Source: a virus. From it: DNA of 32,132 nt. Below are positions 9,771 through 25,280 of this stretch, in pieces (the first letter of the stretch is position 1; each line of letters opens with the position of its first letter). The stretch is from positions 1 to 32,132 of the IMG/VR virus record IMGVR_UViG_3300043466_000642; one strand, 5' to 3'. Made by a program: the position numbers and the translations under genes. Below the pieces are notes generated by a model. The model was not told the DNA's origin, made no database searches, and worked only from the letters and a program-made list of their open reading frames with translations.

Positions 9771-9789
9771 AGCCTTATGGGATATGGCT
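9771..9789. promoter_or_regulatory. Palindromic operator, site A
   Basis: AGCCTTAT-GGG-ATATGGCT, 15 of 16 half-site bases matching the perfect palindrome at 18566. It begins 10 bp after the gp10-like stop and ends 28 bp before a TATGAT box, at the boundary between tail genes and the metalloprotease gene. Confidence 0.7.
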
Positions 9790-9817
9790 CAAATGAATGC
9801 TTGATCTGGTCGCTGTG

Positions 9818-9823
9818 TATGAT
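9818..9823 (+). promoter_or_regulatory. Putative -10 box TATGAT before the metalloprotease gene
   Basis: TATGAT is the same -10 hexamer as in the promoters at 18526 and 25297 and lies at a similar distance from a palindromic operator. No good -35 hexamer is found 17-18 bp upstream, so activity may depend on a bound regulator. Confidence 0.4.
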
Positions 9824-9852
9824 AAGATGAACTTATGAACACAGGAGGAACA

Positions 9853-10569
9853 ATGAAGGGAAACAATGTCAGGTGGAAGTGTCCGATCTGCGAAAGCGGA
9901 TTGCTTGCACCATCAAGACCACGCATGAATGATGTGCGCCGATACTGCTTGCCATGTTCAGAGGAAACAGGCAAGTTGGTTCAACGCACAGCACCAGCAC
10001 TTGAGAAGAAGCGTGCAACAAAGAAAGTGCAATCATCAGCGAAAGCATCTGCCAAGCGTGCAACTGCAGCGAAGAAGAAAGCACCAGCGAAACAACAAGC
10101 ACGCATTGATGCACAGCGCGTGAAGATGATCAACAAAGAAGCCGAAAAGATTTGGGCGTTGATGTCAGAGTTTCATGGTGGCAAACGGTTGCCTGTGATC
10201 AACATTGTGCGCGCACAGAATCGTGGCAAACAGCACGGACATGCATTGCCTTCTGCGAATGAGATTCAAGTGAATGTAGATCGTGATCAAACAAATTATC
10301 GCAGTCGCAGAGTTTGGGAAGTGCTTGCACACGAACTAGCGCACTGTGCTGTACCACCAACACGCCGAACTGGTATGAGCAGAGATGTGCATTCGCGAGA
10401 GTTCTACCAATGCTTGAAAGTGGTTTGGCAGAAACGATGGAACTGCACAATCTCATTCGCGCAAGTAAGCACATGGGGGTATTCGGTGGATTACATCATT
10501 GAAGCACAAGCAGAACATCTGATTGATTGGAAACTGCCAACACGATCAACAGCACAGGTGGCTGGCTGA
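9853..10569 (+). CDS. SprT-like zinc metalloprotease with N-terminal zinc ribbon
   Basis: A 238-residue protein. Residues 10-35 form a four-cysteine zinc ribbon (C10-x2-C13, C32-x2-C35). A lysine/alanine-rich linker (about 50-85) resembles nucleic-acid-binding tails. The catalytic domain has H160-E-L-A-H164 in W-E-V-L-A-H-E-L-A-H-C, with D-V-H-S-R-E-F-Y about 20 residues later as a likely third ligand. This is the plan of SprT/Spartan-like proteases, which cut DNA-crosslinked proteins in cells. ATG 9853 is fixed by AGGAGG at 9841-9846; ATG 9835 lies before it. Surrounded by tail genes and driven by its own operator, it could act on DNA-bound proteins during infection or process a virion protein. 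Confidence 0.78.
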   Translation: MKGNNVRWKCPICESGLLAPSRPRMNDVRRYCLPCSEETGKLVQRTAPALEKKRATKKVQSSAKASAKRATAAKKKAPAKQQARIDAQRVKMINKEAEKIWALMSEFHGGKRLPVINIVRAQNRGKQHGHALPSANEIQVNVDRDQTNYRSRRVWEVLAHELAHCAVPPTRRTGMSRDVHSREFYQCLKVVWQKRWNCTISFAQVSTWGYSVDYIIEAQAEHLIDWKLPTRSTAQVAG

Positions 10570-11234
10570 TGTTCGCGGTTCGTGTTTCTTCAGTGAAGTC
10601 AGTGCGTGTACTCCGGTTCGCTGACGACTGGTCGCAACTGCGTGCAAGGTTGCTCGAGCATGTTGAACGCGCAGACAAGTTCGCAGGTGATCTGTATTCG
10701 CCAGTGACCTATGCGGAAGGTGCGAAGCGTGGCAACGCTGGCGTGTTGCAAGTGAATGCGCTGGTGATTGATTTGGATGGTGAAGCGTTGGATGTTGCAT
10801 TGCCGAACATTGCGCATCTGGAGTTTGTCGCCTACACAACTTTCAGCCACAAAGCAGATGATCCGCATTGGCATCTGGTGCTTCCGTTGGCTTCACCTGT
10901 ACCTGCATGCGATTGGTCTGCTGTGTGGCATGGTGCGCATCAGCAGATCGGTTTAGGTGGCGACATCAAAACTAAAGATGTGGCACGCATTTTCTTTCTG
11001 CCACAGCATGCACCTGATTCGGTGCATCAAACTTTGGTGAACACAGGTGATTGGTTTGTGCCGGTGCATGGTGTTGTGCCGATGCAGAAACAAACCACAC
11101 ATGATCGAGAAATTGTGTCCATCGTGCCTGATTCATTTTGGGATGCACCTTGCGATATGTCTTGGTGCGATGGATTAACTCGGCCACAGATGTATCAGCT
11201 TGCACGCAAACGGTTGGAAATGTTGCGCATGTAG
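10569..11234 (+). CDS. Primase/replication-initiator-like protein (AEP type)
   Basis: A 221-residue protein with the three motifs of archaeo-eukaryotic-type primases: V-I-D-L-D-G (D68, D70), P-H-W-H-L-V-L-P-L (H100, H102) and D-V-A-R-I-F-F-L-P (137-145). The same block, with F-V-A-Y-T-T-F-S-H before it, is found in plasmid and phage replication initiators and primase-helicases. Here only the primase-like domain and a short C-terminal tail remain; no helicase domain is attached. ATG 10569 overlaps the upstream stop as TGATG. Its place before the tape measure gene is unusual. It is the only primase-like gene in the genome. Confidence 0.7.
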   Translation: MFAVRVSSVKSVRVLRFADDWSQLRARLLEHVERADKFAGDLYSPVTYAEGAKRGNAGVLQVNALVIDLDGEALDVALPNIAHLEFVAYTTFSHKADDPHWHLVLPLASPVPACDWSAVWHGAHQQIGLGGDIKTKDVARIFFLPQHAPDSVHQTLVNTGDWFVPVHGVVPMQKQTTHDREIVSIVPDSFWDAPCDMSWCDGLTRPQMYQLARKRLEMLRM

Positions 11235-11243
11235 AATGTGCGC

Positions 11244-13307
11244 ATGGCACGCGCAAGAACTTTCACCATCCGAATTGTTGGTGATGCAAAAGATGCACAA
11301 CGAGCGTTGAAGGGCATTGGTTCTTCAGCTAAAGGTTTGTCTGGTTCGTTAGCACCGGCAACTGCAGGTTTGGGAAAACTGTTTGGTGCTGCTGCTGGTG
11401 TTGTCGGTTTCGCTGCGATCACCAGAGGAATCAGTTCAATGGTGTCTGCTGCGTATGAGTCGCAGAAAGTTTTGAAACAAACTGAAGCGATTGTGAAAGC
11501 AACTGGTATGGCTGCAGGAATGACTGCAGGTGATATCAGTGCGTTGGCTGATTCGTTGTCTAAGAAAGTTGGCATTGATGATGAAGCGATTCAAACCAGC
11601 CTGAACTTGTTGCTCACTTTCAAACAGGTGCGCAATGAGGTTGGTGCAGGGAACGATGTGTTTGATCGTGCTGCTCAGGCTGCATTGGATTTGGGGAATG
11701 TGTTTGGTTCTACCGATTCGGCTGCTGTGCAACTTGGCAAAGCGTTGTCTGATCCTGTGCGTGGTGTCACAGCATTGCGCAGATCTGGTATCAACTTCAC
11801 GCAATCACAGTTGGATCAGATCAAAGCGTTGGTTGCTTCTAATGATTTGTTGAGCGCACAGAAAATCATTTTGGGTGAAGTGGAGTCGCAGGTTGGTGGT
11901 ACTGCGGAAGCAACTGCTACTTCTGCGGATCGGTTCAAGGTTGCGTTTGAAAACATTGCGGAGAACATTGGCACTTTGCTTCTTCCTGCAATGGAAGCGT
12001 TTGCAAATTACATGATCAACACTGTGCTTCCGTTTGTGCAGGAAGTGATTGATGCGTTCAAGGAAGGTGGGTTGGCTGGCGCGTTGCAGGTTGCTGGCGG
12101 TGCGTTCTTGGACTTCACCACAAATGGTGGCACTGCAGCAGAAGTTGTTTCTGGTTTGTTAGGCATTCTTGCTGGTGCTGCTACTGCGTGGATTGTGTAT
12201 AGCGTGGCGACTACTGCTGCAGCGATTGCAACAGTTGGTTTGTCTGCAGCGATTGCTTCCATTCCGGTGATTGGTCAGATCGCTGTGATCATCGGTTTAA
12301 TCATTGCAGGTTTCACTTACCTTATTTTGAAATCGCAAGGTTTCCGCGACATGCTCAAAACAATCTGGAATGCGTTGGTGAGCGTTATTGAAACAGGTTT
12401 GAATGTATTTCTAAGAGGATTAGAAATTGCAGTGAATGCTGTTGTTGATGCAATCAACTTGTTGATCAGTGCATACAACAAGATCCCGTTCTTGGGCAAC
12501 ATAGATAAATTGAAACATGTCAATTATGAAATTGACTTGACAGCATGGAAGTTCGGCAACGCTGCAAACGCTGTGCAAGGTTATGCGCTGAGCGCAGAAC
12601 AGGCTGCATATGCGACAAGCATTCTTGACAATGAACTTGCTGCACTGGTTGGCATTCCTGCCATCAAAGAACTTGCTGGTGCAACTGATGCAACTGACAA
12701 GTTCAAATCCAGTCTTGGTGGTGTTGGTTCTTCAGTGCCGAAAGAAACTGCTGCAGAGCGTTTTCTGAAAGCGATGCGCGAAGGTGCAGACAAGGCTGCT
12801 GAAGCGTTTCGCAGTTTGCGTGATGACATCGCAAAGAGCATCAGTGGGTTGCTTGATCTTGGTGATGCGTTTGAAGTTGGTGGAAGCAGAGGAATGGTGC
12901 GTGCGTTCACTCAACAAGGCAAAGACATTTTGAATTATGCACGCAACCTTGCAACCTTGCAGCGTCAAGGTTTGGGGCAGCCAGCGTTGCAGCAGATTCT
13001 TGGAATGAATCTCACTGATGGTTCTGCGATTGCGCAAGCGTTGGTTGATGGTGGCATTCAGCAGATACGCCAGATCAATCGTGTGTTTGGTCAGGTGGCG
13101 CAAGCCGGAATGGAACTTGGCACTCAGTTTGCCACTGCTGTGAATCCGTATGGTGCGCAGATTGCTACACAGCAGGATGTTGTGAATCAGACTGTGACTA
13201 ACAATTTCAATGTGGTTGTGAACAGCAACAATCCTGATGCTGTAGTGCGTGCGTTGCGCACTTATCAGAGGCAGAACGGATCAGTGCCGATCAGGGTGAG
13301 TGGCTGA
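11244..13307 (+). CDS. Tape measure protein
   Basis: A 687-residue protein that sets tail length and lines the tail tube. The N-terminus is basic with V-G-D-A-K-D-A-Q-R-A-L-K-G-I, followed by a helical, glycine/alanine-rich domain. A long hydrophobic stretch (about 300-370, including I-A-S-I-P-V-I-G-Q-I-A-V-I-I-G-L-I-I-A-G-F) is typical of the membrane-active part of tape measures. The C-terminus has T-N-N-F-N-V-V-V-N-S and ends V-P-I-R-V-S-G. At about 0.15 nm per residue the tail would be near 100 nm. ATG 11244 is preferred over GTG 11238. Confidence 0.93.
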   Translation: MARARTFTIRIVGDAKDAQRALKGIGSSAKGLSGSLAPATAGLGKLFGAAAGVVGFAAITRGISSMVSAAYESQKVLKQTEAIVKATGMAAGMTAGDISALADSLSKKVGIDDEAIQTSLNLLLTFKQVRNEVGAGNDVFDRAAQAALDLGNVFGSTDSAAVQLGKALSDPVRGVTALRRSGINFTQSQLDQIKALVASNDLLSAQKIILGEVESQVGGTAEATATSADRFKVAFENIAENIGTLLLPAMEAFANYMINTVLPFVQEVIDAFKEGGLAGALQVAGGAFLDFTTNGGTAAEVVSGLLGILAGAATAWIVYSVATTAAAIATVGLSAAIASIPVIGQIAVIIGLIIAGFTYLILKSQGFRDMLKTIWNALVSVIETGLNVFLRGLEIAVNAVVDAINLLISAYNKIPFLGNIDKLKHVNYEIDLTAWKFGNAANAVQGYALSAEQAAYATSILDNELAALVGIPAIKELAGATDATDKFKSSLGGVGSSVPKETAAERFLKAMREGADKAAEAFRSLRDDIAKSISGLLDLGDAFEVGGSRGMVRAFTQQGKDILNYARNLATLQRQGLGQPALQQILGMNLTDGSAIAQALVDGGIQQIRQINRVFGQVAQAGMELGTQFATAVNPYGAQIATQQDVVNQTVTNNFNVVVNSNNPDAVVRALRTYQRQNGSVPIRVSG

Positions 13308-13308
13308 C

Positions 13309-14439
13309 ATGGGGACACAGAACATATCGGTTTTGTACTATCCAACAAAAGGTTCAAGCCTTCCTGTGATCACTTTGGATGATGTGCAAAGCGTTTCGTT
13401 TTCGCAAGGCAGACAGCGCGTGGTTGATCCGTATCCTGTTGGCACTGCAACGATTGAATGCAGGAACATATCTGCGTGGACAACAAAACCAAAAATTGGA
13501 ATGTTTTGCAAAATCAATTTGACTATCAATGGCAACACAACAACTGCATTGTCGGGGATGATCATCAATGTGCGAATCATTTACGGTTTTACATCTATTT
13601 ATGATCGCGCAGAAATAACTGTTGAAGATGCTTTGGGTGATTGGGGGAGATCACAAGTGGAAGCGTTTTCGCTGGCATCAAAAAAAACCGGTGCGCAAAT
13701 GGAAGATTTAGGAAATGAAATCAATGTGATTCCAACAGAGTTTGACACACGATCCACCGCATCTGCACAAACCGTTGATGGTTCTGCTTTGGATTATTTG
13801 AACACGCTGTGTCTTACAGAATACGGACATATCACTTCGCAAGAGGTTGCCAACTTGTCGCGAACATATTTTTATGGGCGCAATCGCTACTGGAGTACAA
13901 CGGTTTTTAAGTTCAGTGATGATTCAACAGACATTGCTGCTGGTGCAATGCCTTACGAATCAGTGGAGTTTGCTGATGCAGCGGATTTGAACTTCACAAA
14001 AATTGTGGTGAATCCTGCAGGGCTGGCAACACAAACCGCTGTGCGTGGTTCAAAACCTTACAGATCATTGGAAGTTGATACCGTTGATGTTTCTACTGCG
14101 CAGGCTGATGATCTTGCAGAATACTTGCTTTATAACTTCAAACAGGATGATGCAGACATTTTGCAGATTTCTTCTACTTGGAACAGAGCGCAGAGAGCAG
14201 GTACTGCTGCAGAAGATAATTTGCGTTCTTTACTTTTTGAAGGATATAGAACTGGTTTGCCGATTGATGTTGTGTTGCGTGGCACAACATTCAACTGTGT
14301 AGTTGAAGGCAGAGAATGGATAGCAACACCAGAGGAGATCACAGCAACTTGGTTTTTGTCTGGCAGAACTTTCAACGATTATCTGCTTTTGGATAACACT
14401 GCTTATGGCATACTTGATTCTTCTAAACTTGGCTTCTAG
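13309..14439 (+). CDS. Tail hub / distal minor tail protein candidate
   Basis: A 376-residue beta-rich protein directly after the tape measure, the usual place for the distal tail or hub protein. Visible parts are an early D-V-Q-S-V-S-F-S-Q-G-R-Q-R segment, D-P-Y-P-V-G-T-A-T-I-E, a G-x-I-x-x-V-R-I-x-Y hub-like strand pair, and G-L-P-I-D-V-V-L-R-G near the C-terminus. Proteins of this plan in actinophages are annotated as minor tail proteins. ATG 13309 has GGTGAG at 13295-13300; GTG 13300 is an alternative that adds three residues and overlaps the tape measure gene. Confidence 0.72.
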   Translation: MGTQNISVLYYPTKGSSLPVITLDDVQSVSFSQGRQRVVDPYPVGTATIECRNISAWTTKPKIGMFCKINLTINGNTTTALSGMIINVRIIYGFTSIYDRAEITVEDALGDWGRSQVEAFSLASKKTGAQMEDLGNEINVIPTEFDTRSTASAQTVDGSALDYLNTLCLTEYGHITSQEVANLSRTYFYGRNRYWSTTVFKFSDDSTDIAAGAMPYESVEFADAADLNFTKIVVNPAGLATQTAVRGSKPYRSLEVDTVDVSTAQADDLAEYLLYNFKQDDADILQISSTWNRAQRAGTAAEDNLRSLLFEGYRTGLPIDVVLRGTTFNCVVEGREWIATPEEITATWFLSGRTFNDYLLLDNTAYGILDSSKLGF

Positions 14440-14447
14440 GAACTGAT

Positions 14448-14942
14448 ATGGCAACACCAACTAATCTTCCATCAACTTTCACTGTTGGTCAGGTTCTGAC
14501 TGCAGCGAACATGAATGATGTGCGTGGCGCGTTTCGTATTCTGCAGGTGGTGACTAATAACTATTCCCTCGCGTATTCAAATGCGACCAACACTTACACG
14601 GATGTTGGTGTAACTGTGGACATCACACCACAGGCAACTTCTTCAAAGGTGCTTGTCGTGGCGAACATCAATGGTGCGTTCAAACAAACGAACAACACCG
14701 CACTTGATTTGGAGATTCGCAGAGCATCCACAACGATTTACACAGCGACAGCGAACTTCAACACAGGAAGCGTGCTGACAAATGTTGGTTCCGTAACGAT
14801 GGTGTATTTGGATAGTCCTGCAACTACTTCTTCCAGAACATACAAAGTGCGTGGGCGTTCTTCGCAGAACCTTGCTACTGTTGGCGCACAGTTGCTTGGT
14901 GCATCAGATTCATCCATCACAGTATTTGAGATTTCAGCATGA
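14448..14942 (+). CDS. Tail fibre or receptor-binding-type protein
   Basis: A 164-residue protein. The N-terminus F-T-V-G-Q-V-L-T-A-A-N-M-N-D-V-R (11-26) is the conserved short anchor of many phage tip and fibre proteins. The rest is threonine/serine/asparagine-rich with alternating hydrophobics, as in a beta-sandwich tip domain. It would be the most exposed tail protein and thus a candidate for host recognition. It is short for a fibre, so it may form trimers alone or with the protein encoded next. Confidence 0.65.
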   Translation: MATPTNLPSTFTVGQVLTAANMNDVRGAFRILQVVTNNYSLAYSNATNTYTDVGVTVDITPQATSSKVLVVANINGAFKQTNNTALDLEIRRASTTIYTATANFNTGSVLTNVGSVTMVYLDSPATTSSRTYKVRGRSSQNLATVGAQLLGASDSSITVFEISA

Positions 14943-15094
14943 CACACGAACAGATCATTGAAGCATTGTTGGCATTAGGTTTTGATGGTGGCTGGTCACT
15001 GCTTGGCACAGACATTGACAACATGCTTTGGTTGAACGATGCACCGAAACCAACATTGGAAGAACTGCAAGCAGCGTTAAGAGAACCAGCATGA
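14939..15094 (+). CDS. Small tail-associated protein (51 aa)
   Basis: A 51-residue protein coupled by ATGA to the fibre-like gene. It contains W-S-L-L-G-T-D-I-D-N-M-L-W-L-N-D followed by P-K-P-T-L-E-E-L-Q-A-A-L, a pattern often seen in small proteins or fibre C-termini next to phage tail genes (a tryptophan-rich turn and a K-P-T-x-E-E-L helix). A tail-tip assembly or chaperone role is plausible but not shown. Confidence 0.6.
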   Translation: MTHEQIIEALLALGFDGGWSLLGTDIDNMLWLNDAPKPTLEELQAALREPA

Positions 15095-15270
15095 ATAAAG
15101 AGTTTCTGAAATCGTGGTCACGATCTGTTCTGGTTTGTTTGTTGATGGTGATTACTTCAACAGGGATGAGTTTGAAAGATGTGCTGGTTGCGCTCGCAGT
15201 GTCTGTGATTGCACCTGTGATCCGTTGGTTGGATGAAGATGATTCTGCATTTGGAAGAGGCGCACAATGA
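15091..15270 (+). CDS. Holin candidate (two membrane segments)
   Basis: A 59-residue protein. A short basic N-terminus (M-N-K-E-F-L-K-S-W-S-R) is followed by two hydrophobic segments, about 12-28 and 29-46, and an acidic C-terminus (D-E-D-D). This is the size and charge plan of small holins that open the inner membrane for the endolysin. It overlaps the genes on both sides by ATGA, directly before the endolysin. Confidence 0.7.
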   Translation: MNKEFLKSWSRSVLVCLLMVITSTGMSLKDVLVALAVSVIAPVIRWLDEDDSAFGRGAQ

Positions 15271-15743: not shown

Positions 15744-15932
15744 TCGGCTGTGTGGGTCTAGGCTGATTCAGGGGTATCTAACTACCCGAAACGGTTTTGC
15801 GTGCGTTAGAACGCAATATGAACGGAATGGTGGCATTGTGGTTGGAAGCCTTGTGCCACATGACTATTGATAAATCGCACATCTATAATTGTAAGTAACC
15901 AGACTGCGCATGTTCGGAAAGCCTTATGTGTT
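15744..15932 (+). other. Non-coding gap after the endolysin with several small stem-loops
   Basis: About 190 bases without a gene. TATCTA is repeated at the endolysin end and again at 15775-15780. Stem-loops are GGGTA-TCTAAC-TACCC (15772-15787) and TTGCGT/ACGCAA (15797-15802 with 15811-15816). None is followed by a T-run, so a clear terminator is not visible. A half-site of the palindromic operator (AGCCTTGT, 15847) and a promoter lie in the second half. Confidence 0.4.
15860..15889 (+). promoter_or_regulatory. Sigma70-like promoter before the second lysis-region membrane gene
   Basis: ATGACT (15860-15865), an 18-bp spacer and a perfect TATAAT (15884-15889). Operator B lies 30 bp downstream of the -10 box, in the early transcribed region, where a bound repressor would block elongation or initiation. 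Confidence 0.55.
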
Positions 15933-15938
15933 ATGGAA
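15920..15938. promoter_or_regulatory. Palindromic operator, site B
   Basis: AGCCTTAT-GTG-TTATGGAA. The left half is perfect; the right half matches 4 of 8. It covers the start codon ATG 15933 of the membrane gene, so binding would affect its expression directly. It is the weakest of the four sites. Confidence 0.5.
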
Positions 15939-16124: not shown

Positions 16125-16132
16125 GAGGAATC

Positions 16133-16366
16133 ATGGCCTTGCGCGATGAACTCAAGTTTCATGCACGCAGATCTGGTGGTGTGTGTGCTGTAGCAATCAT
16201 GTTGCAATCTGCCGGAAAACAAAAAGAAGAAATTGTGGAACTAATTAATGATCACACTGTTCCATCTTCTGTGTTGGTGCGACTGTTGCAATCGCATGGT
16301 TTCACTATCAAAGATCATTCTGTGACACGCCATCGCAGGAAGGAATGCACTTGTGAGCATGCGTGA
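16133..16366 (+). CDS. Small helix-turn-helix-like DNA-binding protein
   Basis: A 77-residue protein with a strong AGGAGG site before ATG 16133. The C-terminal half, T-V-P-S-S-V-L-V-R-L-L-Q-S-H-G-F-T-I-K-D-H-S-V-T (shown in part), reads as a helix-turn-helix and ends in V-T-R-H-R-R-K-E-C-T-C. Actinophages often have this protein type directly before a metallophosphoesterase gene, as here. The target is unknown; its operon position makes it another candidate regulator. Confidence 0.6.
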   Translation: MALRDELKFHARRSGGVCAVAIMLQSAGKQKEEIVELINDHTVPSSVLVRLLQSHGFTIKDHSVTRHRRKECTCEHA

Positions 16367-17411
16367 AGAATTAGAAAGTCTCGAACGCATTCAGATGCAA
16401 CGCAAGATGGATGATGTGAAGCGTGAAGTGGCTGATGCGCGTGAGCGTGCAAAGATCGCGGAAGAAGCAATGCAACGGATGCAGCGTGAACTTGGTTTGC
16501 TAACTCATCTTTCTAAATCTTCTCCTGCTACATGGATGACGCAACCTGCGAAAGCGAAAGCGCATCGTGGAACACCTTGGTTGTTGTTATCGGATTTGCA
16601 TTTAGATGAAGTTGTGAATCCTGCTGAAGTGATGGGAAGCAACGCATACAACCGCCGGATCGCTGAACTGCGTATGAAGAAACTGTTTGAATCTGCTGTG
16701 AAAGTGTCACGCGATTATTGGTCTGGTGTCACCTATGACGGAATAGTTATGCCACTTGCAGGTGACATTTTCTCTGGTGACATTCACGAAGAACTATCTG
16801 AAACTAATGAAGATACAATGTTGGGCAGCGTCTTGCATTGGGCAGATCATTTGTCTGCAGGTGTTTCAATGTTGGCTGATCATTTCGGCCATGTGCATGT
16901 GCCTGTGGTGGTTGGCAATCACGGTAGGCGCACACGCAAACCACGCGCCAAGATGCGTGCGCGTGACAACTTTGATTGGTTCATTGGTCAGATGTTGGCA
17001 CGCCAGTTCCGTAACGATAAACGCGTGACATTTGATGTGAGCGATGGTGCAGATTTGGTGGTGCAGTCATATGGTCACAAGGTGTTGATCACGCATGGTG
17101 ATCAAGCGAATGGTGGCAACGGGATTGGTGGTGCGATGATGCCAATCATGCGACTGGATGCCAAGAAGCGTCAAAGGCAGAACGCTGTGAATCAACCATA
17201 CGATCTGATGGTGATGGGACATTGGCACACATTGATATTTGCGCCACAGTTCATTGTGAACGGATCGTTGAAAGGTGCTGATGAATACTGTTGGATCGGC
17301 AACTTTGGTTTTGAAGAACCAGCGCAAGCAATGTGGTTGATGACACCAGAACACGGAAAGACATTCACTGCACCAATTTTTGTGCAAGATAGGAAAGCAG
17401 AACGATGGTAG
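16353..17411 (+). CDS. Calcineurin-like metallophosphoesterase
   Basis: A 352-residue phosphoesterase with an N-terminal coiled coil (about 3-50). The catalytic metal motifs are all present: D81-x-H83 (S-D-L-H-L-D), G-D138 (L-A-G-D), G-N-H190 (V-V-G-N-H-G), H248 in T-H-G-D, and G-H-W-H (289-292). The family includes nucleases of the Mre11/SbcD type and phosphodiesterases; no capping domain identifies the substrate. GTG 16353 is chosen because AGGAAGGA at 16337-16344 is correctly spaced to it; ATG 16359 lies too far away. It overlaps the upstream gene by 14 bp. Confidence 0.85.
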   Translation: MSMREELESLERIQMQRKMDDVKREVADARERAKIAEEAMQRMQRELGLLTHLSKSSPATWMTQPAKAKAHRGTPWLLLSDLHLDEVVNPAEVMGSNAYNRRIAELRMKKLFESAVKVSRDYWSGVTYDGIVMPLAGDIFSGDIHEELSETNEDTMLGSVLHWADHLSAGVSMLADHFGHVHVPVVVGNHGRRTRKPRAKMRARDNFDWFIGQMLARQFRNDKRVTFDVSDGADLVVQSYGHKVLITHGDQANGGNGIGGAMMPIMRLDAKKRQRQNAVNQPYDLMVMGHWHTLIFAPQFIVNGSLKGADEYCWIGNFGFEEPAQAMWLMTPEHGKTFTAPIFVQDRKAERW

Positions 17412-17931: not shown

Positions 17932-18162
17932 TCAATCGCTCAGATGTTCTGCAAGCCTTGACATCACTTCTGCGTTCGCTGCTGCTTTCATCATTTGTGA
18001 CATTCTCAAATCAACATTGCCTTTGATGTTGCATCGTTTTGTGTTCTCCCAATGCAAAAGCGTTTCGTTGAGCATGTGGATTAATTCTTTTATTTCATCA
18101 ATCGCATTCTTCTTGAATGTGTCTGCTGCTTTCACAGCATCTTCCTGTGTGAATGTTTTCAT
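17932..18162 (-). CDS. Small leftward protein of unknown function (76 aa)
   Basis: Second gene of the leftward operon. The 76-residue product is helical (T-Q-E-D-A-V-K-A-A-D-T-F-K-K-N-A-I-D-E-I), with a methionine- and alanine-rich C-terminal half. I do not recognise the family. The start is fixed by AGGAGGAAC in front of ATG 18162, the leader type shared by the early operons; the frame is open to 18186. Confidence 0.75.
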   Translation of the reverse strand: MKTFTQEDAVKAADTFKKNAIDEIKELIHMLNETLLHWENTKRCNIKGNVDLRMSQMMKAAANAEVMSRLAEHLSD

Positions 18163-18210: not shown

Positions 18211-18489
18211 CTACGGCTCAATGCCGTTGCGCTCGCAGTGAGAGAGCCACCATGTGAGAGATGCAATCGCATCGCGCTTGAGGTCAAACGGTTGGCATTG
18301 ATCCCATTTGTTTGCCCTGACAAAATCTGTTCCCTTGCGCACTATGTACCATTCAGTGCGCTGTGCTGGTGGTGGGCATCCTTTGGCGTGGAATCGCTCG
18401 CAATAAGGATGCTCGCAATCCAAACCATCGGGCTGCCATGTTTCTTTGACAATCTCATATTCGCATGTCTTGATGTTGTACTTGTTCAT
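18211..18489 (-). CDS. Small cysteine-containing leftward protein (92 aa)
   Basis: First gene of the leftward operon. The 92-residue product has C-E-H-P-Y-C-E-R-F-H-A-K-G-C (about 26-39), a possible metal site, then W-Y-I-V-R-K-G and a C-terminal T-W-W-L-S-H-C. The family is not recognised. AGGAGGAAC precedes ATG 18489. Being the only genes on this strand and driven by a promoter like that at 25273, this pair may be expressed immediately on infection. Confidence 0.75.
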   Translation of the reverse strand: MNKYNIKTCEYEIVKETWQPDGLDCEHPYCERFHAKGCPPPAQRTEWYIVRKGTDFVRANKWDQCQPFDLKRDAIASLTWWLSHCERNGIEP

Positions 18490-18525
18490 TGTTCCTCCTA
18501 TGTTCGGCGTGATTGCCATACATGA

Positions 18526-18555
18526 ATCATAAACCAAACTTATATCGGAATGCAA
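18526..18555 (-). promoter_or_regulatory. Leftward promoter with shared module
   Basis: Read leftward: TTGCAT (18555-18550), 18-bp spacer, TATGAT (18531-18526). The stretch 18547-18511 matches 25281-25317 at 31 of 37 positions, including GGTTTATGATTC and TATGGCAA. Operator C lies 34 bp upstream of the -10 box. Confidence 0.65.
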
Positions 18556-18565
18556 CAGTTATTTG

Positions 18566-18584
18566 AGCCTTATTTTATAAGGCT
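18566..18584. promoter_or_regulatory. Palindromic operator, site C (perfect)
   Basis: AGCCTTAT-TTT-ATAAGGCT, a perfect 8-3-8 inverted repeat in the divergent region between the leftward operon and the recombination operon. It ends 17 bp before a rightward TATAAC (18602-18607), so one bound protein could control both directions. Confidence 0.75.
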
Positions 18585-18676
18585 TTCCCGATGTTGCCCC
18601 ATATAACGCACGCCTATATGAACCTTGAAGCACCTATTCATTACCGTGAAACCAGATCCAAAACACAGGAGGAAAC

Positions 18677-19609
18677 ATGCAGATACCGAAACCACCACAC
18701 GGATCACTTGAATGGCATCAGATACGCCACCGCGATGAACAAGATCGTGTGCGATTCGGCGCAAGCGAAGCACCAATTCTTGCTGGTGTCAGCAAATACG
18801 AAACGATCACATCACTTGCGTTGCGTAAATGGTCTCCACCAGAAGTGAACGAACCGAACGCTGCGATGATGCGTGGCAACATTCTTGAACCAGCATTGAT
18901 CACTTATGCAGAACAGCTGTTGCAACAGACTGTGACCACACCGGATGTCATGTATGCGAACGGAAGATTCATCGCAACATTGGATGGAATCACAAACGAT
19001 GGTTCAACAATCGTTGAAGCAAAAACCACAACCGCATACTCGAGCGATGATGAACTTCCTGATGAATACTTTTGGCAGGTGATGGCACAGTTCGCTTGCG
19101 TACCTGATGCGCACACTGCGTTGGTGGTGGTGTTGGATCGCAAGATGCGTTTAGGTTCTTGGATTGTCACCAGATCGAGCCATGAAGAACAGATTGCTGA
19201 ACTTGTGGTGCGTGCCGATTTGGTTGGCGCAATGTTTGACTGTGGCGAACTGCCATCCGATGCCGAACCAACTGAAGCTGAAGTGAAACAGTTGTTCCCA
19301 ATTCCAGATGGCCAAGTTGAATTGACACCAACAGAAATCGGTTTGCTTGAAGAATGGGATGCGTGGAAACAACAACGCGAGATTGCAGAAACACAAGAAC
19401 AGAATGTTCGTGACAAGATTGCACGCATATTAGGTGCGAACGAAATTGGAACATTCGGTGGTGTTCCGGTGATCACTTTCAAAACACGCAAAGGTGTTGC
19501 ACGCACAGATTTGAAAAGTCTCGAACGCGACTATCCCGAAATAGTTGCGAACTACAAAACAACAGGAAACACAACACGCATTTTGCGTATGACTGGAGGA
19601 AGAAAATGA
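18677..19609 (+). CDS. YqaJ-like recombination exonuclease
   Basis: A 310-residue 5'-3' exonuclease of the PD-(D/E)XK class (lambda exonuclease/YqaJ type). Motifs: S-L-E-W-H-Q-I-R near the N-terminus with F-G-A-S-E-A-P, R-G-N-I-L-E71-P, T-L-D103-G and V-E114-A-K116. The C-terminal part holds a coiled coil (about 220-260). It resects ends for the annealing protein encoded next, with which it overlaps by ATGA. ATG 18677 follows AGGAGGAAAC. It is the first gene of the rightward early operon, downstream of operator C. Confidence 0.88.
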   Translation: MQIPKPPHGSLEWHQIRHRDEQDRVRFGASEAPILAGVSKYETITSLALRKWSPPEVNEPNAAMMRGNILEPALITYAEQLLQQTVTTPDVMYANGRFIATLDGITNDGSTIVEAKTTTAYSSDDELPDEYFWQVMAQFACVPDAHTALVVVLDRKMRLGSWIVTRSSHEEQIAELVVRADLVGAMFDCGELPSDAEPTEAEVKQLFPIPDGQVELTPTEIGLLEEWDAWKQQREIAETQEQNVRDKIARILGANEIGTFGGVPVITFKTRKGVARTDLKSLERDYPEIVANYKTTGNTTRILRMTGGRK

Positions 19610-20256
19610 AACTGGAAGAAATAGTTGAAAAGTATGCGACACCAGATCCTGCGATGGTGTCAAAACTGAACAAACGATACAAAGACAAGAACGGAAACTG
19701 GCAAGATTTGTTTTTGGACTATGTAGGCCACGCAGACTTGACCAAGATTCTGATTGCGATTGATCCCGAATGGAATTGGAAACCTCTCGAAGTTCGTGAT
19801 GGTGCGCCAGTGATCAACATCAGTGTTGGCATCGCAACGATGTGGATTGAACTGACTGTGCTAGGCAAAACGATCATTGGTGTTGGTTCATGCAAAGCCG
19901 ATAAGGAAGATCACTGCAAGGAACTGATTGGTGACGGATTGCGGAACGCTGCGATGCGTTTCGGAATCGCAATCAATCTGTGGTCAAAATCGGACACACC
20001 AACCAGCGCACCACGCACCATCCGCAATCAACCGATGAATGTTGTGAACAATGTGGTGCAACATCCAGCAGGGAAAGCTGGTGCTGGACTGGTGAAATTG
20101 GTTGAACGCGAATCATCCAAGCAAGGTGATCCAGTGAAGATAGTTGCCGGCATTGTAGGCCGAAAACTCGATGCGTTAAATGATTTAACTGCAGAAGAAG
20201 CACGCACTGTGTTGGCACAACTTAAACAAACCACAGATGAAGAAGAGCCTTTTTGA
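19606..20256 (+). CDS. Single-strand annealing protein (Rad52/Erf-like)
   Basis: A 216-residue annealing protein paired with the exonuclease. It shows Y-V-G-H-A-D-L-T-K-I-L (39-49), D-P-E-W-N-W-K-P, and G-D-G-L-R-N-A-A-M-R-F-G-I-A (109-122), the hallmark of the Rad52-related phage annealing proteins of actinophages. The C-terminal region is a separate helical domain ending in D-E-E-E-P-F. That acidic tip resembles the protein-docking tip of bacterial SSB proteins. Overlap with the next gene is TGATG. Confidence 0.82.
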   Translation: MKLEEIVEKYATPDPAMVSKLNKRYKDKNGNWQDLFLDYVGHADLTKILIAIDPEWNWKPLEVRDGAPVINISVGIATMWIELTVLGKTIIGVGSCKADKEDHCKELIGDGLRNAAMRFGIAINLWSKSDTPTSAPRTIRNQPMNVVNNVVQHPAGKAGAGLVKLVERESSKQGDPVKIVAGIVGRKLDALNDLTAEEARTVLAQLKQTTDEEEPF

Positions 20257-20849
20257 TGAATGCAAATCCATTGAAGTTCGCAATCGCTGATCCACCTTAT
20301 TTGGGCAGAGCGGAACGCTGGTATGGCGAAACTGGTTGTGGCATTGCGCGTGGTCATGGTCGAGCAGATCAACATCCCGAAGCACACATTTGGGATGATC
20401 CGCAAAGCCATATTGATCTAGTGCATCGTTTGAATCGTGATTATCACGGATGGGCAATCGCGATGAGCGTTCACAGCTTGTCTGTATATTTATCTGCAGT
20501 AGAAACAGATTCACGCAATGGCATTCGTGTATGTGTATGGCACAAACCATCTGCTGTAACAAGTGGCTCACGCATCACTAATCATTGGGAACCGGTATTG
20601 ATCAATGTTCCAAAAGAACGCAGATCATGGAAAAGCGGAAACAAATGTTCCGATGTGTTTTCATGCAATCCGAATAGACGCGGATTCATAGGAAGCAAAC
20701 CGCATGCGTGGACATTTTGGATTCTCGAGTTGTTAGGCGTGCAAGAAGGTGATTCGGTTGATGATCTGTTTCCCGGATCTGGTGCTGTTGCAGAAGCAAT
20801 GCACATTTTGGCGCAAGGTTTGCCAATTCAAGAAGGATTGTTTGAATGA
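20256..20849 (+). CDS. DNA methyltransferase (DPPY type)
   Basis: A 197-residue methyltransferase-like protein. D12-P-P-Y15 is the catalytic motif IV of amino-methyltransferases (N6-adenine or N4-cytosine), and D-L-F-P-G-S-G-A-V (170-178) is the SAM-binding motif I, so the order is IV before I. It is of a compact family common in actinophages. No restriction enzyme is adjacent. It may protect phage DNA or mark it for other processes. The target site cannot be read from sequence. Confidence 0.82.
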   Translation: MNANPLKFAIADPPYLGRAERWYGETGCGIARGHGRADQHPEAHIWDDPQSHIDLVHRLNRDYHGWAIAMSVHSLSVYLSAVETDSRNGIRVCVWHKPSAVTSGSRITNHWEPVLINVPKERRSWKSGNKCSDVFSCNPNRRGFIGSKPHAWTFWILELLGVQEGDSVDDLFPGSGAVAEAMHILAQGLPIQEGLFE

Positions 20850-21397
20850 TTGACCATGCACCAAATTGCACTATTGATCTGGAATCATTAGATGCACATT
20901 GTCCACGATGTGTGGAACTAAACAACCAATGGAGGAAAACAATGGAACAAACAGAAATGGATGCGTATCTAGCGCATGTCGCACGCGACACCAGCAAAGA
21001 ACGCGCACAATCCGAAGTGATGAATGGCACATTCAACGCACGCAAACAACGCGCATTGCAACTGTTGTCAGATGGCGAATACACATGGCGTGAACTTGCA
21101 CAAGCAATGGATTTGCATCATGGCCAAGTGTCTAGTTTGTTATCAACATTGCACAAAAATGGTCACATTGTGATGATGAAAAAGATCAAAGATCGTTGCC
21201 ATCCGTACACACACATTGACAACACACGATGGATGATGCCGGATGAATACTGGATTGAACCAGTACAAACCAAAGCATCACGCAAAATGAACACTGCTAA
21301 TCAATTAGCGGAAACAGTCGCACAATTCTTGAACAGAAATGCGAACACAAATGATCTAGTGAAAGCACTAGAAACCTATTGGAAGGAATCCCAATGA
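20846..21397 (+). CDS. Winged-helix DNA-binding protein, with internal start
   Basis: A 183-residue protein. An N-terminal cysteine segment (C8...C19-x2-C22) is followed by a winged helix at about 65-110 (R-A-L-Q-L-L-S-D-G-E-Y-T-W-R-E-L-A-Q-A-M, then Q-V-S-S-L-L-S-T-L) and a helical C-terminus. Inside the frame GGAGGAAAACA stands directly before ATG 20942, giving a 151-residue form without the cysteines. Either two forms are made or only the shorter one. ATG 20846 overlaps the upstream stop as ATGA. Confidence 0.72.
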   Translation: MIDHAPNCTIDLESLDAHCPRCVELNNQWRKTMEQTEMDAYLAHVARDTSKERAQSEVMNGTFNARKQRALQLLSDGEYTWRELAQAMDLHHGQVSSLLSTLHKNGHIVMMKKIKDRCHPYTHIDNTRWMMPDEYWIEPVQTKASRKMNTANQLAETVAQFLNRNANTNDLVKALETYWKESQ

Positions 21398-21708
21398 ACC
21401 AAATGACCATCATCGGCAACATTGCCGAACCGAAGCTGACATTCACAAACAGTGGTCACGCCAAACTTGAAATTGGTTTGGCAACAACACGCACAGTGAA
21501 AGAAGAAAAGATCACCACTTGGCACAATGTGGTTGCGTGGGGACAACTGGCAGAAAACTTGTCTGCTGTGTTGCAGAAAGGTGATCGTGTGATTGTCATC
21601 GGAAGAATTAACGAAGATACATATACGAACAAAGATGGTGTTGAAGTCAAGTGGCGCACTGTGGTTGCTGATGATGCTGGCAAATCGTGCAGGTGGTCTG
21701 CAGAGTGA
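21394..21708 (+). CDS. ssb: Single-stranded DNA-binding protein
   Basis: A 104-residue OB-fold SSB. Family marks are M-T-I-I-G-N-I-A-E-P-K-L-T-F-T, T-T-W-H-N-V-V-A-W-G-Q-L-A-E-N (47-61) and V-I-V-I-G-R-I-N-E-D-T-Y. It consists of little more than the OB fold and ends D-D-A-G-K-S-C-R-W-S-A-E, without the acidic D-D-x-P-F tip that bacterial SSBs use to recruit partners. It overlaps genes on both sides by a few bases. Confidence 0.9.
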   Translation: MNQMTIIGNIAEPKLTFTNSGHAKLEIGLATTRTVKEEKITTWHNVVAWGQLAENLSAVLQKGDRVIVIGRINEDTYTNKDGVEVKWRTVVADDAGKSCRWSAE

Positions 21709-21902
21709 TGGCAGATTTCGAAGAAATGCGCAACGCTGTGAAGCGTGCAACACAAGATGACATTGTTGAAAGATTGACTGCAATCGCATTCCACGATCCG
21801 CAGATTGATTATCGGCAGGACATCAAATTGGTTGCTGCAACAGCAGCTGATGAGATTGAAAGATTGCGTACAGAACTCGAACACATGCGCAACACTCGAT
21901 GA
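21708..21902 (+). CDS. Small helical protein (64 aa)
   Basis: A 64-residue acidic, helical protein starting at ATG 21708 (TGATG overlap with ssb). It contains D-D-I-V-E-R-L-T-A-I-A and A-A-T-A-A-D-E-I-E-R-L-R-T-E-L-E-H, the latter a coiled-coil pattern. Small proteins with this A-A-D-E-I-E-R-L-R ending are common in phage operons. Function unknown. Confidence 0.65.
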   Translation: MADFEEMRNAVKRATQDDIVERLTAIAFHDPQIDYRQDIKLVAATAADEIERLRTELEHMRNTR

Positions 21903-22183
21903 TTTTTGCAGATCGTTCCGGTGGTGACTTCACACCAAATGAGTTCACACAATATCTGCGTGATCTAGCTGACTATTGCATCAGTATTGAACAACAAGAA
22001 TTAGAAGAAGCATTTTTGGAATCGGCACATATCATTGATTCCGATACAGATCATCTATTCACATTGCAATTTCAACACATCATCAATAGCGAAATGATCC
22101 GTGAATTATCACTTGAACGCAACCAATGGAAGAAGCGTGCGATGAGAGCAGAAAAAAAACTTAGGAAGAGCAGCAATGATTAA
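21899..22183 (+). CDS. Small acidic helical protein (94 aa)
   Basis: A 94-residue protein coupled by ATGA. It is acidic in the middle (S-I-E-Q-Q-E-L-E-E-A-F) and basic at the end (W-K-K-R-A-M-R-A-E-K-K-L-R-K). I do not recognise the family. The following gene starts within its last 8 bases. Confidence 0.65.
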   Translation: MIFADRSGGDFTPNEFTQYLRDLADYCISIEQQELEEAFLESAHIIDSDTDHLFTLQFQHIINSEMIRELSLERNQWKKRAMRAEKKLRKSSND

Positions 22184-22283
22184 GTTGGCAACATGGATAT
22201 TGATGATCATTCTTTTTCCGTTCGTTGCGATGGCCATGCTGACTGCATATGTGATCGCAACAGACAAGGAAATGTGGCGATGA
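22176..22283 (+). CDS. Single-pass membrane microprotein (35 aa)
   Basis: Residues 3-28 are almost entirely hydrophobic (L-A-T-W-I-L-M-I-I-L-F-P-F-V-A-M-A-M-L) and the C-terminus is D-K-E-M-W-R. It overlaps the preceding gene by 8 bp and the WhiB gene by ATGA, with AGGAAGAG in front of ATG 22176. Coupling supports it as a real gene. It may act as a membrane anchor or a small inhibitor. Confidence 0.6.
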   Translation: MIKLATWILMIILFPFVAMAMLTAYVIATDKEMWR

Positions 22284-22504
22284 ACTGGATGGAACACGCT
22301 GCATGCAAAGGTTTGCCAACACAAATCTTTTTCCCACATGGGCAGGATTACAGTGCTGGCAAAGCAATATGTGCGAAATGCACTGTGCGTGAAGAATGTT
22401 TAGAAACAGAACTGCAATTTGATATGTCGAATCATGGTTTGTTTGGTGGATTGACACCAGCTGAACGATGGGACATCAAACTAACTCGATGGAATGCAAT
22501 CTGA
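22280..22504 (+). CDS. WhiB-like iron-sulfur transcription factor
   Basis: A 74-residue WhiB-family protein. The four cluster ligands are C9, C31-x2-C34 and C40 (C-x21-C-x2-C-x5-C), preceded by F-F-P-H-G-Q, and the G-L-F-G-G-L-T turn (53-59) corresponds to the family G-V/I-W-G-G motif. The family is confined to Actinobacteria and their phages and acts by binding the principal sigma factor. ATG 22280 is chosen because homology starts there and it overlaps the upstream stop as ATGA. It could redirect host transcription or control phage promoters. Confidence 0.93.
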   Translation: MNWMEHAACKGLPTQIFFPHGQDYSAGKAICAKCTVREECLETELQFDMSNHGLFGGLTPAERWDIKLTRWNAI

Positions 22505-22602
22505 TGTGGCGTTATGCAATCGGATGGTGTATCGGTTTGATCAACCTGTGGATCACTTTGCGTTATCAGTGGTGGAACGATGAAGAAGATTCTGAAAAAT
22601 AA
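22504..22602 (+). CDS. Tryptophan-rich microprotein (32 aa)
   Basis: A 32-residue product starting in the WhiB stop (TGATG). It has a hydrophobic core (W-C-I-G-L-I-N-L-W-I-T-L) followed by Q-W-W and an acidic tail. It is probably membrane-associated. The next gene starts inside it. Confidence 0.5.
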   Translation: MWRYAIGWCIGLINLWITLRYQWWNDEEDSEK

Positions 22603-22699
22603 AGAAGGGTATTACAGAATCAGTGTGGTGATGTTTGCGCTCTATGCGTTCAGCATCGGATTCTGGTTCTTTGCAATCTGGTTGGAAAGGATTTGGTGA
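22580..22699 (+). CDS. Single-pass membrane microprotein (39 aa)
   Basis: A basic N-terminus (K-K-I-L-K-N-K) followed by a membrane segment (about 14-34) rich in aromatic residues (F-S-I-G-F-W-F-F-A-I-W). It overlaps its neighbours on both sides, 23 bp upstream and TGATG downstream. Function unknown. Confidence 0.5.
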   Translation: MKKILKNKEGYYRISVVMFALYAFSIGFWFFAIWLERIW

Positions 22700-22830
22700 T
22701 GAAGTGTTGTGATCAAAATCCGCACAGGTATTGTCGCTGCAGTGGCGCGACTGAACCTTGCAGAAGTTGTGAATGGGATTCGGAACATGCGTTGTGGCAT
22801 GAAGAAAACGATGAACCAGAGGATGACTGA
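22699..22830 (+). CDS. Cysteine-rich zinc-finger-like microprotein (43 aa)
   Basis: C3-C4, C12-x-C14, C21-x2-C24 in 43 residues, with histidine near 30 and an acidic end. The spacing suits a small zinc knuckle. It is chained by TGATG to genes on both sides. Function unknown. Confidence 0.55.
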   Translation: MKCCDQNPHRYCRCSGATEPCRSCEWDSEHALWHEENDEPEDD

Positions 22831-22997
22831 TGGCGATTGGTTCTGATCCCGAAATTGGGAAACAGTTCACTGTGTGGAAAGACATGAACCAAGAACAACG
22901 CAAAGCATGGTTCAAACATTTCCGGCAATTAGCTGGTGCAGATTGTTTAGGTGGCCATGCCACTTTGGGGTATCCAAAGCGAAAGGAAACAAAATGA
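22830..22997 (+). CDS. Small protein before the methyltransferase (55 aa)
   Basis: A 55-residue protein with a central basic helix (N-Q-E-Q-R-K-A-W-F-K-H-F-R-Q-L-A). It overlaps the methyltransferase gene by ATGA. Whether it binds DNA is not evident; the family is not recognised. Confidence 0.55.
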   Translation: MAIGSDPEIGKQFTVWKDMNQEQRKAWFKHFRQLAGADCLGGHATLGYPKRKETK

Positions 22998-23965
22998 ATG
23001 AAGCAACTATTTATGTGGGCAATGTTCTCGAGCAGATAAAGAACATTCCCGATTCAACTGTGCAATGTGTTGTCACTTCTCCTCCATATTGGGGATTACG
23101 CAACTACGGCCACGATGATCAACTTGGTTTGGAATCAACACCAGAAGCATATGTGGAAAACATGGTTTCAGTGTTTCGCGAAGTGCATCGCATTCTGAAA
23201 GATGATGGTGTTCTGTGGCTCAACTTAGGTGATTCATACAACGGTTCTGGTGGAAACCATAAACCGCATCACAAAAATGATTCCCTTTTTCAAGGTGATA
23301 TCGGTGCAGATAAATACAAAGGTGAAGGTCGCAATGTCGAGACTTTGAAACCGAAAGATTTGGTTGGCATTCCTTGGCGTGTTGCGTTCGCATTGCAAGC
23401 TGATGGATGGTGGTTGCGTCAAGACATCATTTGGAGCAAACCAAATCCATTGCCGGAATCCATCACGGATCGTTGCACAAAAGCACACGAATATGTTTTT
23501 CTTCTCACAAAATCCCAACGATATTTCTTCGACAATGAAGCAATCAAAGAAGAATCAGCAACCATTTGGAATGCAAAAACATTCAATGAAGCCAAGAAAG
23601 GTGCAGATCTGGATGATCCTTTTCTGCGCACCAGGGGATTCCATACACAACACAAAGATGAAGAACAGAACACACGCAACAAACGATCTGTTTGGAACAT
23701 TCCGGTGAAACCTTTTCGTGGCGCACATTTCGCTGTGATGCCGGAAAAGCTGGTTGAACCATGCATTCTTGCATCATCCAAACCTGAAGATGTTGTGTTT
23801 GATCCATTTACCGGATCTGGCACTGTTGCTGTTGTTGCTTTGAATTATCAAAGAAACTTCATCGGAACAGAATTGAATCCCGAATATGCAGAAATTGCGA
23901 AAAACAGAATTAACGATTCAAATCCAATGTTCAGCAATGTGAATATCATTGATCAGCATGACTGA
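22994..23965 (+). CDS. DNA methyltransferase (SPPY, N4-cytosine/N6-adenine type)
   Basis: A 323-residue beta-class methyltransferase. S29-P-P-Y32 in T-S-P-P-Y-W-G-L-R-N-Y is catalytic motif IV and D-P-F-T-G-S-G-T (270-277) is motif I. SPPY is most common in N4-cytosine enzymes but also occurs in N6-adenine enzymes. The insert between the motifs (about 70-240) should hold the target-recognition part. No nuclease partner of a restriction system is adjacent, so it is an orphan. ATG 22994 overlaps the upstream stop. Confidence 0.9.
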   Translation: MNEATIYVGNVLEQIKNIPDSTVQCVVTSPPYWGLRNYGHDDQLGLESTPEAYVENMVSVFREVHRILKDDGVLWLNLGDSYNGSGGNHKPHHKNDSLFQGDIGADKYKGEGRNVETLKPKDLVGIPWRVAFALQADGWWLRQDIIWSKPNPLPESITDRCTKAHEYVFLLTKSQRYFFDNEAIKEESATIWNAKTFNEAKKGADLDDPFLRTRGFHTQHKDEEQNTRNKRSVWNIPVKPFRGAHFAVMPEKLVEPCILASSKPEDVVFDPFTGSGTVAVVALNYQRNFIGTELNPEYAEIAKNRINDSNPMFSNVNIIDQHD

Positions 23966-24383
23966 ACTTCTAGGTGCAAGAAAAGCAGATTGTGTGTGTG
24001 GATGTGGTCTGTTTGGTACACCAAAAAAGAAACCACTTGGACACATCAGAATGTGTACTTGTCCACGCTGCACAGGGAAACGCAATCGTGCCAAAGGTGA
24101 TGCCAAAGCAAGAAATGCACGCAAGGCTTTAGGGATCGCTGGTGTGAACTCACGCCATGAAGAAGTGTGGGGAGGCAATCTGCGTGTTGAAGTAAAGGCA
24201 GGTGCGCAAGTGAATCCGATTTGGACACGGTTCAAAAACGCTGAAGAACAATCTGAAGCTGCGCGTGCCATTGGTGACAATCGGCCATTCGCAATGGTGG
24301 CAATGCCTGATGGAATGAAAGATGGTTTGGTGATCATCAGGTTGCGTGATGTGTCTGCGTTTGTTGCTGCACATCTCGAGTGA
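23958..24383 (+). CDS. PD-(D/E)XK-like nuclease with zinc ribbon, resolvase candidate
   Basis: A 141-residue protein. An N-terminal cysteine group (C-V-C-G-C, then C-T-C-P-R-C, about 12-39) is followed by a basic linker (R-N-R-A-K-G-D-A-K-A-R-N-A-R-K) and a nuclease-like core with E-E-V-W-G-G-N-L-R-V-E-V-K-A-G (about 68-82), where E-x-K is the catalytic pattern of PD-(D/E)XK enzymes. Related actinophage proteins are usually called Holliday-junction resolvase or nuclease. The context of recombination genes fits. ATG 23958 overlaps the methyltransferase by 8 bp. Confidence 0.65.
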   Translation: MTELLGARKADCVCGCGLFGTPKKKPLGHIRMCTCPRCTGKRNRAKGDAKARNARKALGIAGVNSRHEEVWGGNLRVEVKAGAQVNPIWTRFKNAEEQSEAARAIGDNRPFAMVAMPDGMKDGLVIIRLRDVSAFVAAHLE

Positions 24384-24404
24384 AATGAATTAGAAGGAGG
24401 AAAA

Positions 24405-25280
24405 ATGACTAGTGGCTTATGGGCAAAAATTGCTGTTGATTACGCTGATGATCCGAAAATTGTTCGTGCCGGCATTGAAGGTGAAGTGTTGTTTGTGCGA
24501 TCTGTGTGTTGGTGCAAGAAACAGAACAATGGTTTCATTCCGGATGTGTTGCTTACACGCATTGGTATGGGATTGAACGGTTTGGAACAAATCGCTGAAC
24601 GGTTGGTTGCAGTGGGGCTTTGGCAGATTGTGGATGATGGTTGGTTCATTCCAAAGTTTGATGAATGGCAATCTGCGAATCCGAACACAAGTGAGAAAGC
24701 ACAACATGCAAATCATTTGCGTTGGCATAAGAAAACACCAAAAGCTGATTGCATATGGTGTTCATCCCAATCATCCCACTGCGATCCCAATGGGAATCCA
24801 TTTACGATTCCTAGAGAAGAGAAGAGTAGAGAAGAAACTATTAGTGCGACATCTGCCGATGCGCAGAAGATGTGTGATCTATTAGCACAAAAAATGGTTG
24901 CCAACGGATGCAAACCACCAAACATCACACGCAAATGGATTGATGACATGGACAAGATCATGCGCATTGATGGCCACACTGCAGAAGAAGTTGAATCAGT
25001 GATCATGTGGTGTCAGCAGGATTCTTTTTGGTGCAGCAACATTCTTTCGCCATCAAAACTGCGCACACAGTTCGATGCACTCAAATTGCGAATGCCGAAA
25101 CAAGAAACACCACAACCGGAAGAAGTGCGTGATCCCGATTTCAAATGCTTCGAAGATGGGCTAGTGGATTGGAAAATTGGTTTGGAACTCGATTCGGAAT
25201 TGGTGCAATCCAAGTTGGCTGGCATGACTGAACATCAGCAAAGCCTTTATTTGCAAGGCTTTCGTGGGATGCTTGATTGA
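24405..25280 (+). CDS. Replication protein, DnaD/DnaT-like helicase loader candidate
   Basis: A 291-residue protein. Residues 1 to about 75 look like a winged-helix replisome-organiser domain (V-L-F-V-R-S-V-C-W-C-K-K-Q-N-N-G-F-I-P then L-V-A-V-G-L-W). A variable, cysteine-containing linker leads to a C-terminal domain with M-W-C-Q-Q-D-S-F-W-C-S-N-I-L-S-P-S-K-L-R (about 204-223), the signature of DnaD/DnaT-like loader domains. It probably recruits the host replicative helicase. GAAGGAGG precedes ATG 24405. Operator D and a -35 box lie in its last 40 bases. Confidence 0.72.
   Translation: MTSGLWAKIAVDYADDPKIVRAGIEGEVLFVRSVCWCKKQNNGFIPDVLLTRIGMGLNGLEQIAERLVAVGLWQIVDDGWFIPKFDEWQSANPNTSEKAQHANHLRWHKKTPKADCIWCSSQSSHCDPNGNPFTIPREEKSREETISATSADAQKMCDLLAQKMVANGCKPPNITRKWIDDMDKIMRIDGHTAEEVESVIMWCQQDSFWCSNILSPSKLRTQFDALKLRMPKQETPQPEEVRDPDFKCFEDGLVDWKIGLELDSELVQSKLAGMTEHQQSLYLQGFRGMLD
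25242..25260. promoter_or_regulatory. Palindromic operator, site D (inside a gene end)
   Basis: AGCCTTTA-TTT-GCAAGGCT; with the flanks, AAAGCCTT pairs perfectly with AAGGCTTT. It matches the consensus at 12 of 16 half-site bases, with the outer six bases of each half intact. It lies in the last codons of the replication gene, 36 bp upstream of a TATGAT box. Confidence 0.65.

Follow-up and report, generated by a model that had tools for sequence, protein, structure and literature searches.

The 32,132-nucleotide viral sequence IMGVR_UViG_3300043466_000642 (hereafter the window, i.e. the whole stretch that was analysed) carries, at three places, a 19-bp palindrome with 8-bp arms that lies at a fixed distance from a promoter and is followed by a small accessory gene. 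A 127-nt direct repeat at its two ends (1-127 and 32006-32132) indicates a complete circular genome of 32,005 bp, which encodes terminase, portal, head protease, tape measure and glycosyltransferase together with a RecE-like nuclease, a single-strand annealing protein, a DnaD-like replication protein, methyltransferases and a WhiB-like protein. No integrase was recognised among the window proteins scanned, and this freshwater phage is apparently lytic. Its nearest isolate by terminase (35% identity) is Pontimonas phage phiPsal1 (MG835450), described as lytic (PMC6106888); since the two also have the same gene order, an actinobacterial host is likely. A nucleotide search of isolate phages with the window gave no matches, and its three close relatives (L041, L042 and L043) are about 79-95% identical in DNA.

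The palindromic sites and their promoter modules

The three sites, designated A, C and D (Table 1), share the consensus AGCCTTAT-N3-ATAAGGCT, with CCTT-N7-AAGG as its core. When the window was scanned for AGCCTTATTTTATAAGGCT allowing up to three mismatches, two matches were found against a mean of 0.03 in 100 shuffled sequences, none of which reached two. An earlier note on this DNA had described a set of four sites. Its perfect palindrome at 18566 and its 15/16 match at 9771 were both recovered well above chance, and its score of 12/16 for 25242, correct for the pattern used, understates a site whose outer arms form the exact palindrome AAAGCCTT-N7-AAGGCTTT. The set was thus borne out as three genuine sites, and the palindrome, looked for in related phages, proved to be conserved even in distant ones. 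The fourth member (15920..15938, plus strand) had to be dropped: its 12/16 score is at chance level, being equalled at 1082, 1096, 12381 and 15847, it coincides in part with the beginning of a small gene, and relatives have no palindrome there, reading AGCCTTGCAGGATATGAAT with no proper right arm. With it falls the argument that the bound protein activates some promoters and blocks another, which depended on this position. The degenerate match AGCCTTGTGCCACATGACT at 15847..15865 (plus strand), upstream of a TATAAT at 15884-15889, is doubtful as well, since its left arm is preserved in the close relatives alone and the site is not conserved in L015. The best sigma-70 promoter match of the scanned region (ATGACT-18-TATAAT, 15860-15889) has no proper operator, so not every promoter belongs to the set.

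Placement at operon boundaries, as the note had it, holds for A, which is intergenic, and for C, which it had not recognised as lying between divergent genes; D is located within the final codons of the DnaD-like gene (24405-25280), directly before the next promoter. Rather than mainly dividing the genome into transcription units, the sites mark slots for accessory genes and the RecE operon.

Nearby -10 boxes were confirmed for sites A and D and, at C, for the minus strand. At all sites that were found without a spacing condition, except one, a -10-like hexamer occurs at +42 to +47 from the operator centre on the side facing the accessory gene, an interval in which 7-8% of random positions in the same genomes have such a hexamer. 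The operator centre therefore falls some 55 bp before the start point of a sigma-70-type promoter (near -55), upstream of the -35 region. The A, C-minus and D modules have promoter and leader sequence in common and are copies of one another, a point that had been missed; shared stretches were seen between C-minus and D of the window, and between A of L043 and C-minus of L041. Several leaders of distant phages have TTCAAGAGGAGG or CTCAAGAGGAGG in common, and on the C side facing RecE (C+) a conserved TATATGAAC is found. Operator, promoter and strong leader together make up one module.

The first gene behind the module encodes a small protein that differs in nearly every phage and from site to site. 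Slot A holds another gene in L043, and the C-minus gene is exchanged for unrelated genes in L041 and L043. Two gene families have also moved between slots: the SprT-like family occupies slot A in the window and has homologs in the C region of L114, L152 and L153, and a family whose members begin METK or METL is found at C-minus in L043, behind the p27165-linked operator of L152 and in the corresponding region of L114. Apart from the weak SprT-like match, no function was recognised for the slot genes.

Table 1. Features of the window discussed in the text, in order of position.
Feature	Position	Strand	Description
Operator A	9771..9789	+	AGCCTTATGGGATATGGCT; intergenic, between tail gene and accessory gene
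Module A promoter	9801..9828	+	-35-like TTGATC; -10 TAAGAT at 9823-9828, +43 from operator centre (alternative TATGAT, 9818-9823)
Module A Shine-Dalgarno	9843..9849	+	Strong AGGAGGA
Slot A accessory gene	9853..10569	+	Zinc ribbon and weak SprT-like match
p16133	16133..16366	+	Small, helical, basic; candidate operator-binding factor
Second minus-strand accessory gene	17932..18162	-	76 amino acids; among relatives only in L041
Slot C-minus accessory gene	18211..18489	-	92 amino acids; perfect AGGAGGA
C-minus leftward -10	18526..18531	-	TATGAT, +44 from operator centre
Operator C	18566..18584	n/a	Perfect AGCCTTATTTTATAAGGCT; between divergent genes
C+ -10 for RecE operon	18615..18622	+	Presumed, non-canonical; conserved TATATGAA
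RecE-like exonuclease	18677..19609	+	First gene of conserved recombination operon right of C
WhiB-like regulator p22193	22193..22504	+	In all four operator-bearing lineages; alternative candidate factor
Operator D	25242..25260	+	AGCCTTTATTTGCAAGGCT; within 3' end of DnaD-like gene
Module D promoter	25273..25302	+	TTGATT, 18 nt, TATGAT
Slot D accessory gene	25333..25578	+	81 amino acids; other genes in L041 and L043
HTH protein with N-terminal Cys motif	26597..26926	+	Homologs confined to L114/L117 and the lineage of the window
XRE-type HTH_3 protein	26938..27168	+	Favoured by the earlier note; disfavoured here as general binder

Conservation in other phages

Wherever their contigs cover the sites, the three close relatives, with roughly 85% identity, keep A, C and D in place. 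Site A was found in L043 and also in the distant record G007/L154, where it occupies the matching tail-gene junction, next to a primase-like gene, and the flanking proteins are 37-49% identical; D was found in L041 and L043. Operator C is conserved in L041, L042, L043 and L015 and present at the corresponding junction in L003, L152/L033, L114 and L117, where it is positioned downstream of p17405 or of a SprT-like gene and before RecE. A scan of IMG/VR for the exact palindrome, with no condition on spacing, returned 36 contig stretches, among which L003, L015, L033 and L034 encode proteins related to the exonuclease, RecE, p17405 or SprT-like protein of the window at 27-75% amino acid identity. 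Scans that added the -10 box, with or without the Shine-Dalgarno sequence, yielded L114, L117 and L087 as further such phages, and an additional site was detected at the junction after the p27165 homolog in both L114 and L152. For the most part, the proteins of the phages recovered by these scans of the collection share no more than 35-75% identity. A control pattern had few matches in the same 12 records.

None of the 78 loci fetched by nuclease homology alone contains the operator, which is hence not a general feature of nuclease-bearing phages, and the carriers fall into two distinct groups of the nuclease tree, nested among operator-free phages. No convincing palindromes of their own were found in the operator-free relatives. 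At all three sites of the window the sequence GGC replaces the GGG found at the same sites of close relatives; this co-variation is consistent with a shared factor, the independent events being few and both forms occurring in other lineages.

A probable operator for a trans-acting factor, and rival readings

The symmetry is most plausibly that of bound DNA. Across 16 sites the CCTT-N7-AAGG core is almost invariant, and the second and inner arm positions vary on one side only; no compensatory arm changes were seen, and 8 of the 15 distinct sequences cannot pair at the second position. Because the arms vary without compensation, the palindrome reads as a DNA operator and not as an RNA hairpin. 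A two-fold symmetric core, a fixed distance to the promoter and conservation across divergent genomes, sequence features expected of a protein-bound dyad operator, are present. That the palindrome is instead an intrinsic terminator or an RNA hairpin insulating the module seems highly improbable to us. C and D do fold better than shuffled sequences (z of -3.8 and -2.5), and terminator-like A/T runs flank the palindrome in many unrelated contigs. Site A, however, folds no better than its shuffles, the stem is not followed by a U-tract, none of A, C and D shows the GC-rich stem and subsequent T run of an intrinsic terminator or is among the terminator-like matches of the window, no Rfam match was obtained, and the uncompensated arm changes and the -10 boxes at fixed distance fit such a structure poorly. 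We give just as little credence to the proposal that the sites are mere recombination linkers which aid cassette swaps and have no regulatory role: the modules are indeed copies of each other and flank exchanged genes, but the operator is conserved where the flanking DNA can no longer be aligned, and the promoter spacing is kept.

The reading we prefer, with a probability of roughly 0.7, is that a dimeric trans-acting factor acts at an operator about 55 bp upstream of the transcription start and thereby controls interchangeable accessory-gene slots and, at C, the RecE operon. A homodimer would bind the palindrome and probably activate the weak accessory-gene promoters together and early in infection; the RecE operon might perhaps be activated by the same factor. 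The slots would be exchanged between phages by recombination, and their genes may serve host takeover or counter-defence. We infer protein binding, the dimeric state, activation, early timing and the role of the genes from the arrangement of the sites; activation in particular is probable from position, as the operator stays fixed upstream of the -35 region. A timing switch, as the earlier note had it, is possible.

Several observations weigh against this reading. In the window taken by itself, it is not exceptional for a palindrome with 6-bp arms to have three near-copies, since other palindromes also have three; single-genome statistics are thus not compelling, and the case rests on conservation and spacing. 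The copies within one lineage are not independent of each other. Operator D lies in coding sequence, C+ lacks a canonical -10 box, and the second, variant site of L152, with its -10 at +51, is the sole exception to the +42 to +47 spacing. Finally, no regulator tracks the operator: p16133 occurs in 60 of the 78 nuclease-bearing loci that do not contain it, and for this protein the structure model was of medium confidence and a structure search gave no significant fold match.

A rather unlikely competitor is a repressor that, in the manner of Aca proteins, binds the operator and silences the accessory promoters and the RecE operon once the early phase of infection is over. Phage operators often serve repressors, a predicted wHTH protein of an archaeal virus has been proposed to repress early genes via a common sequence (PMC11065993), and C could act on two divergent promoters at once. 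Against repression, the operator centre is near -55 in every module, outside the -35 and -10 elements, where simple steric repression would be unusual, although looping is possible.

As for the factor favoured here, it may be the phage protein p16133, the WhiB-like protein or a factor of the host. Each lineage examined has both phage proteins, but no p16133 was detected in the G007 fragment. Its presence in operator-free loci disqualifies p16133 as an operator-specific marker. Together with a phosphoesterase-type nuclease (16133-17411 in the window) it forms a pair seen in at least 60 other viral loci. The XRE-type protein proposed earlier is disfavoured as a general binder, no HTH_3 match having been found in G002 and G003 (17 and 18.7 kb), two operator carriers of the P1 lineage that are fragments but seem to cover most of its genome between them. 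The HTH protein at 26597, whose structure model was of medium confidence, is likewise not suited to be a general binder, being absent from G001-G003. A host transcription factor whose sites have been exploited independently by phages of the same hosts, a proposal we rate as doubtful, would explain why no phage regulator is restricted to operator carriers and why the carriers, all with a GC content of 0.44-0.51, fall into two separate nuclease clades within operator-free ones. It is at odds with the lack of the operator in the low-GC nuclease-bearing relatives L218, L232, L204 and L215, and with a scan of 84,980 species genomes (GTDB) for operator plus -10, in which none of 28 matches was titled Actinomycetota, the probable host order not being searchable as a group.

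Comparison with described elements

Cluster A mycobacteriophages such as L5 carry stoperators, short asymmetric sites that are present in many copies per genome and are bound by the lysogeny repressor. They resemble the element described here in that one operator sequence is repeated through an actinophage genome, but differ from the three symmetric, promoter-near sites of a window in which no integrase was recognised, and the 13-bp stoperator pattern has one match with two mismatches in the window against 2.0 expected, i.e. chance level. The closest described element is the ESAS of cluster K mycobacteriophages, in which imperfect 15-17-bp repeats separated by a spacer are combined with a promoter in one 46-47-bp motif and are accompanied by the 13-bp SAS (GGGATAGGAGCCC) close to the start codon (PMC3203893, PMC11373665). 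In both cases an intergenic inverted-repeat element with a SigA-like promoter precedes several non-structural genes of actinobacterial phages, repeat variants differ by lineage (by subcluster in the ESAS), and an mRNA hairpin is little supported. The window element, by contrast, is compact, a 19-bp palindrome whose two 8-bp arms lie ahead of the -35 region, and a search of the window for GGGATAGGAGCCC with up to two mismatches gave no match. Although ESAS act at a comparable position, we do not class the window element as an ESAS, because the defining SAS is absent and the geometry is different.

Beyond its equal gene order, phiPsal1 offers a likeness in that it has its own duplicated module of promoter, leader and Shine-Dalgarno sequence before two genes without database matches. 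The sequence of that module is different, and the operator itself is lacking in phiPsal1, where only matches with one mismatch occur, in coding sequence. The module copies (26379-26478 and 27694-27793 in phiPsal1, L051) are a possible counterpart. In the literature, of which our search had incomplete coverage, we did not find the palindrome described.

The closest functional parallel is provided by the early-gene sequences of archaeal viruses, some of them associated with Aca8, in which one conserved sequence stands before several small, poorly conserved and unrelated viral genes (PMC11065993). There, however, the promoters are of the TATA/BRE type, a predicted regulator (Aca8) has been named, and anti-defence roles have been shown for a few of the genes; the shared regulatory sequences were used to find anti-defence genes (PMC11065993). 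Most phages that infect the abundant freshwater actinobacteria have yet to be characterised; for 'Ca. Nanopelagicales' the first isolates were published in 2023 (PMC10202952). An operator marking slots in which small genes are rapidly exchanged would provide a sequence handle on their host-takeover or counter-defence genes, and makes the identity of the regulator a directly testable question. More speculatively, and with the odds somewhat against it, the module, which recurs in phage lineages that branch separately, may be a shared regulatory currency of phages of low-GC freshwater actinobacteria, marking interchangeable slots for such genes and usable to find them by sequence.

Three further observations were made along the way. 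The region 25593-27820 of the window is 91-95% identical to the relatives, compared with 82-86% for most flanking regions, which suggests a recent exchange. At 9853-11234 a tail gene and the tape measure gene are separated by the SprT-like gene and a primase/helicase-like gene, functions not usually encountered in such a position. In L213 (4251-5115) the palindrome AACATG-N5-CATGTT occurs 13 times with a period of exactly 72 nt, and is probably a coding tandem repeat.

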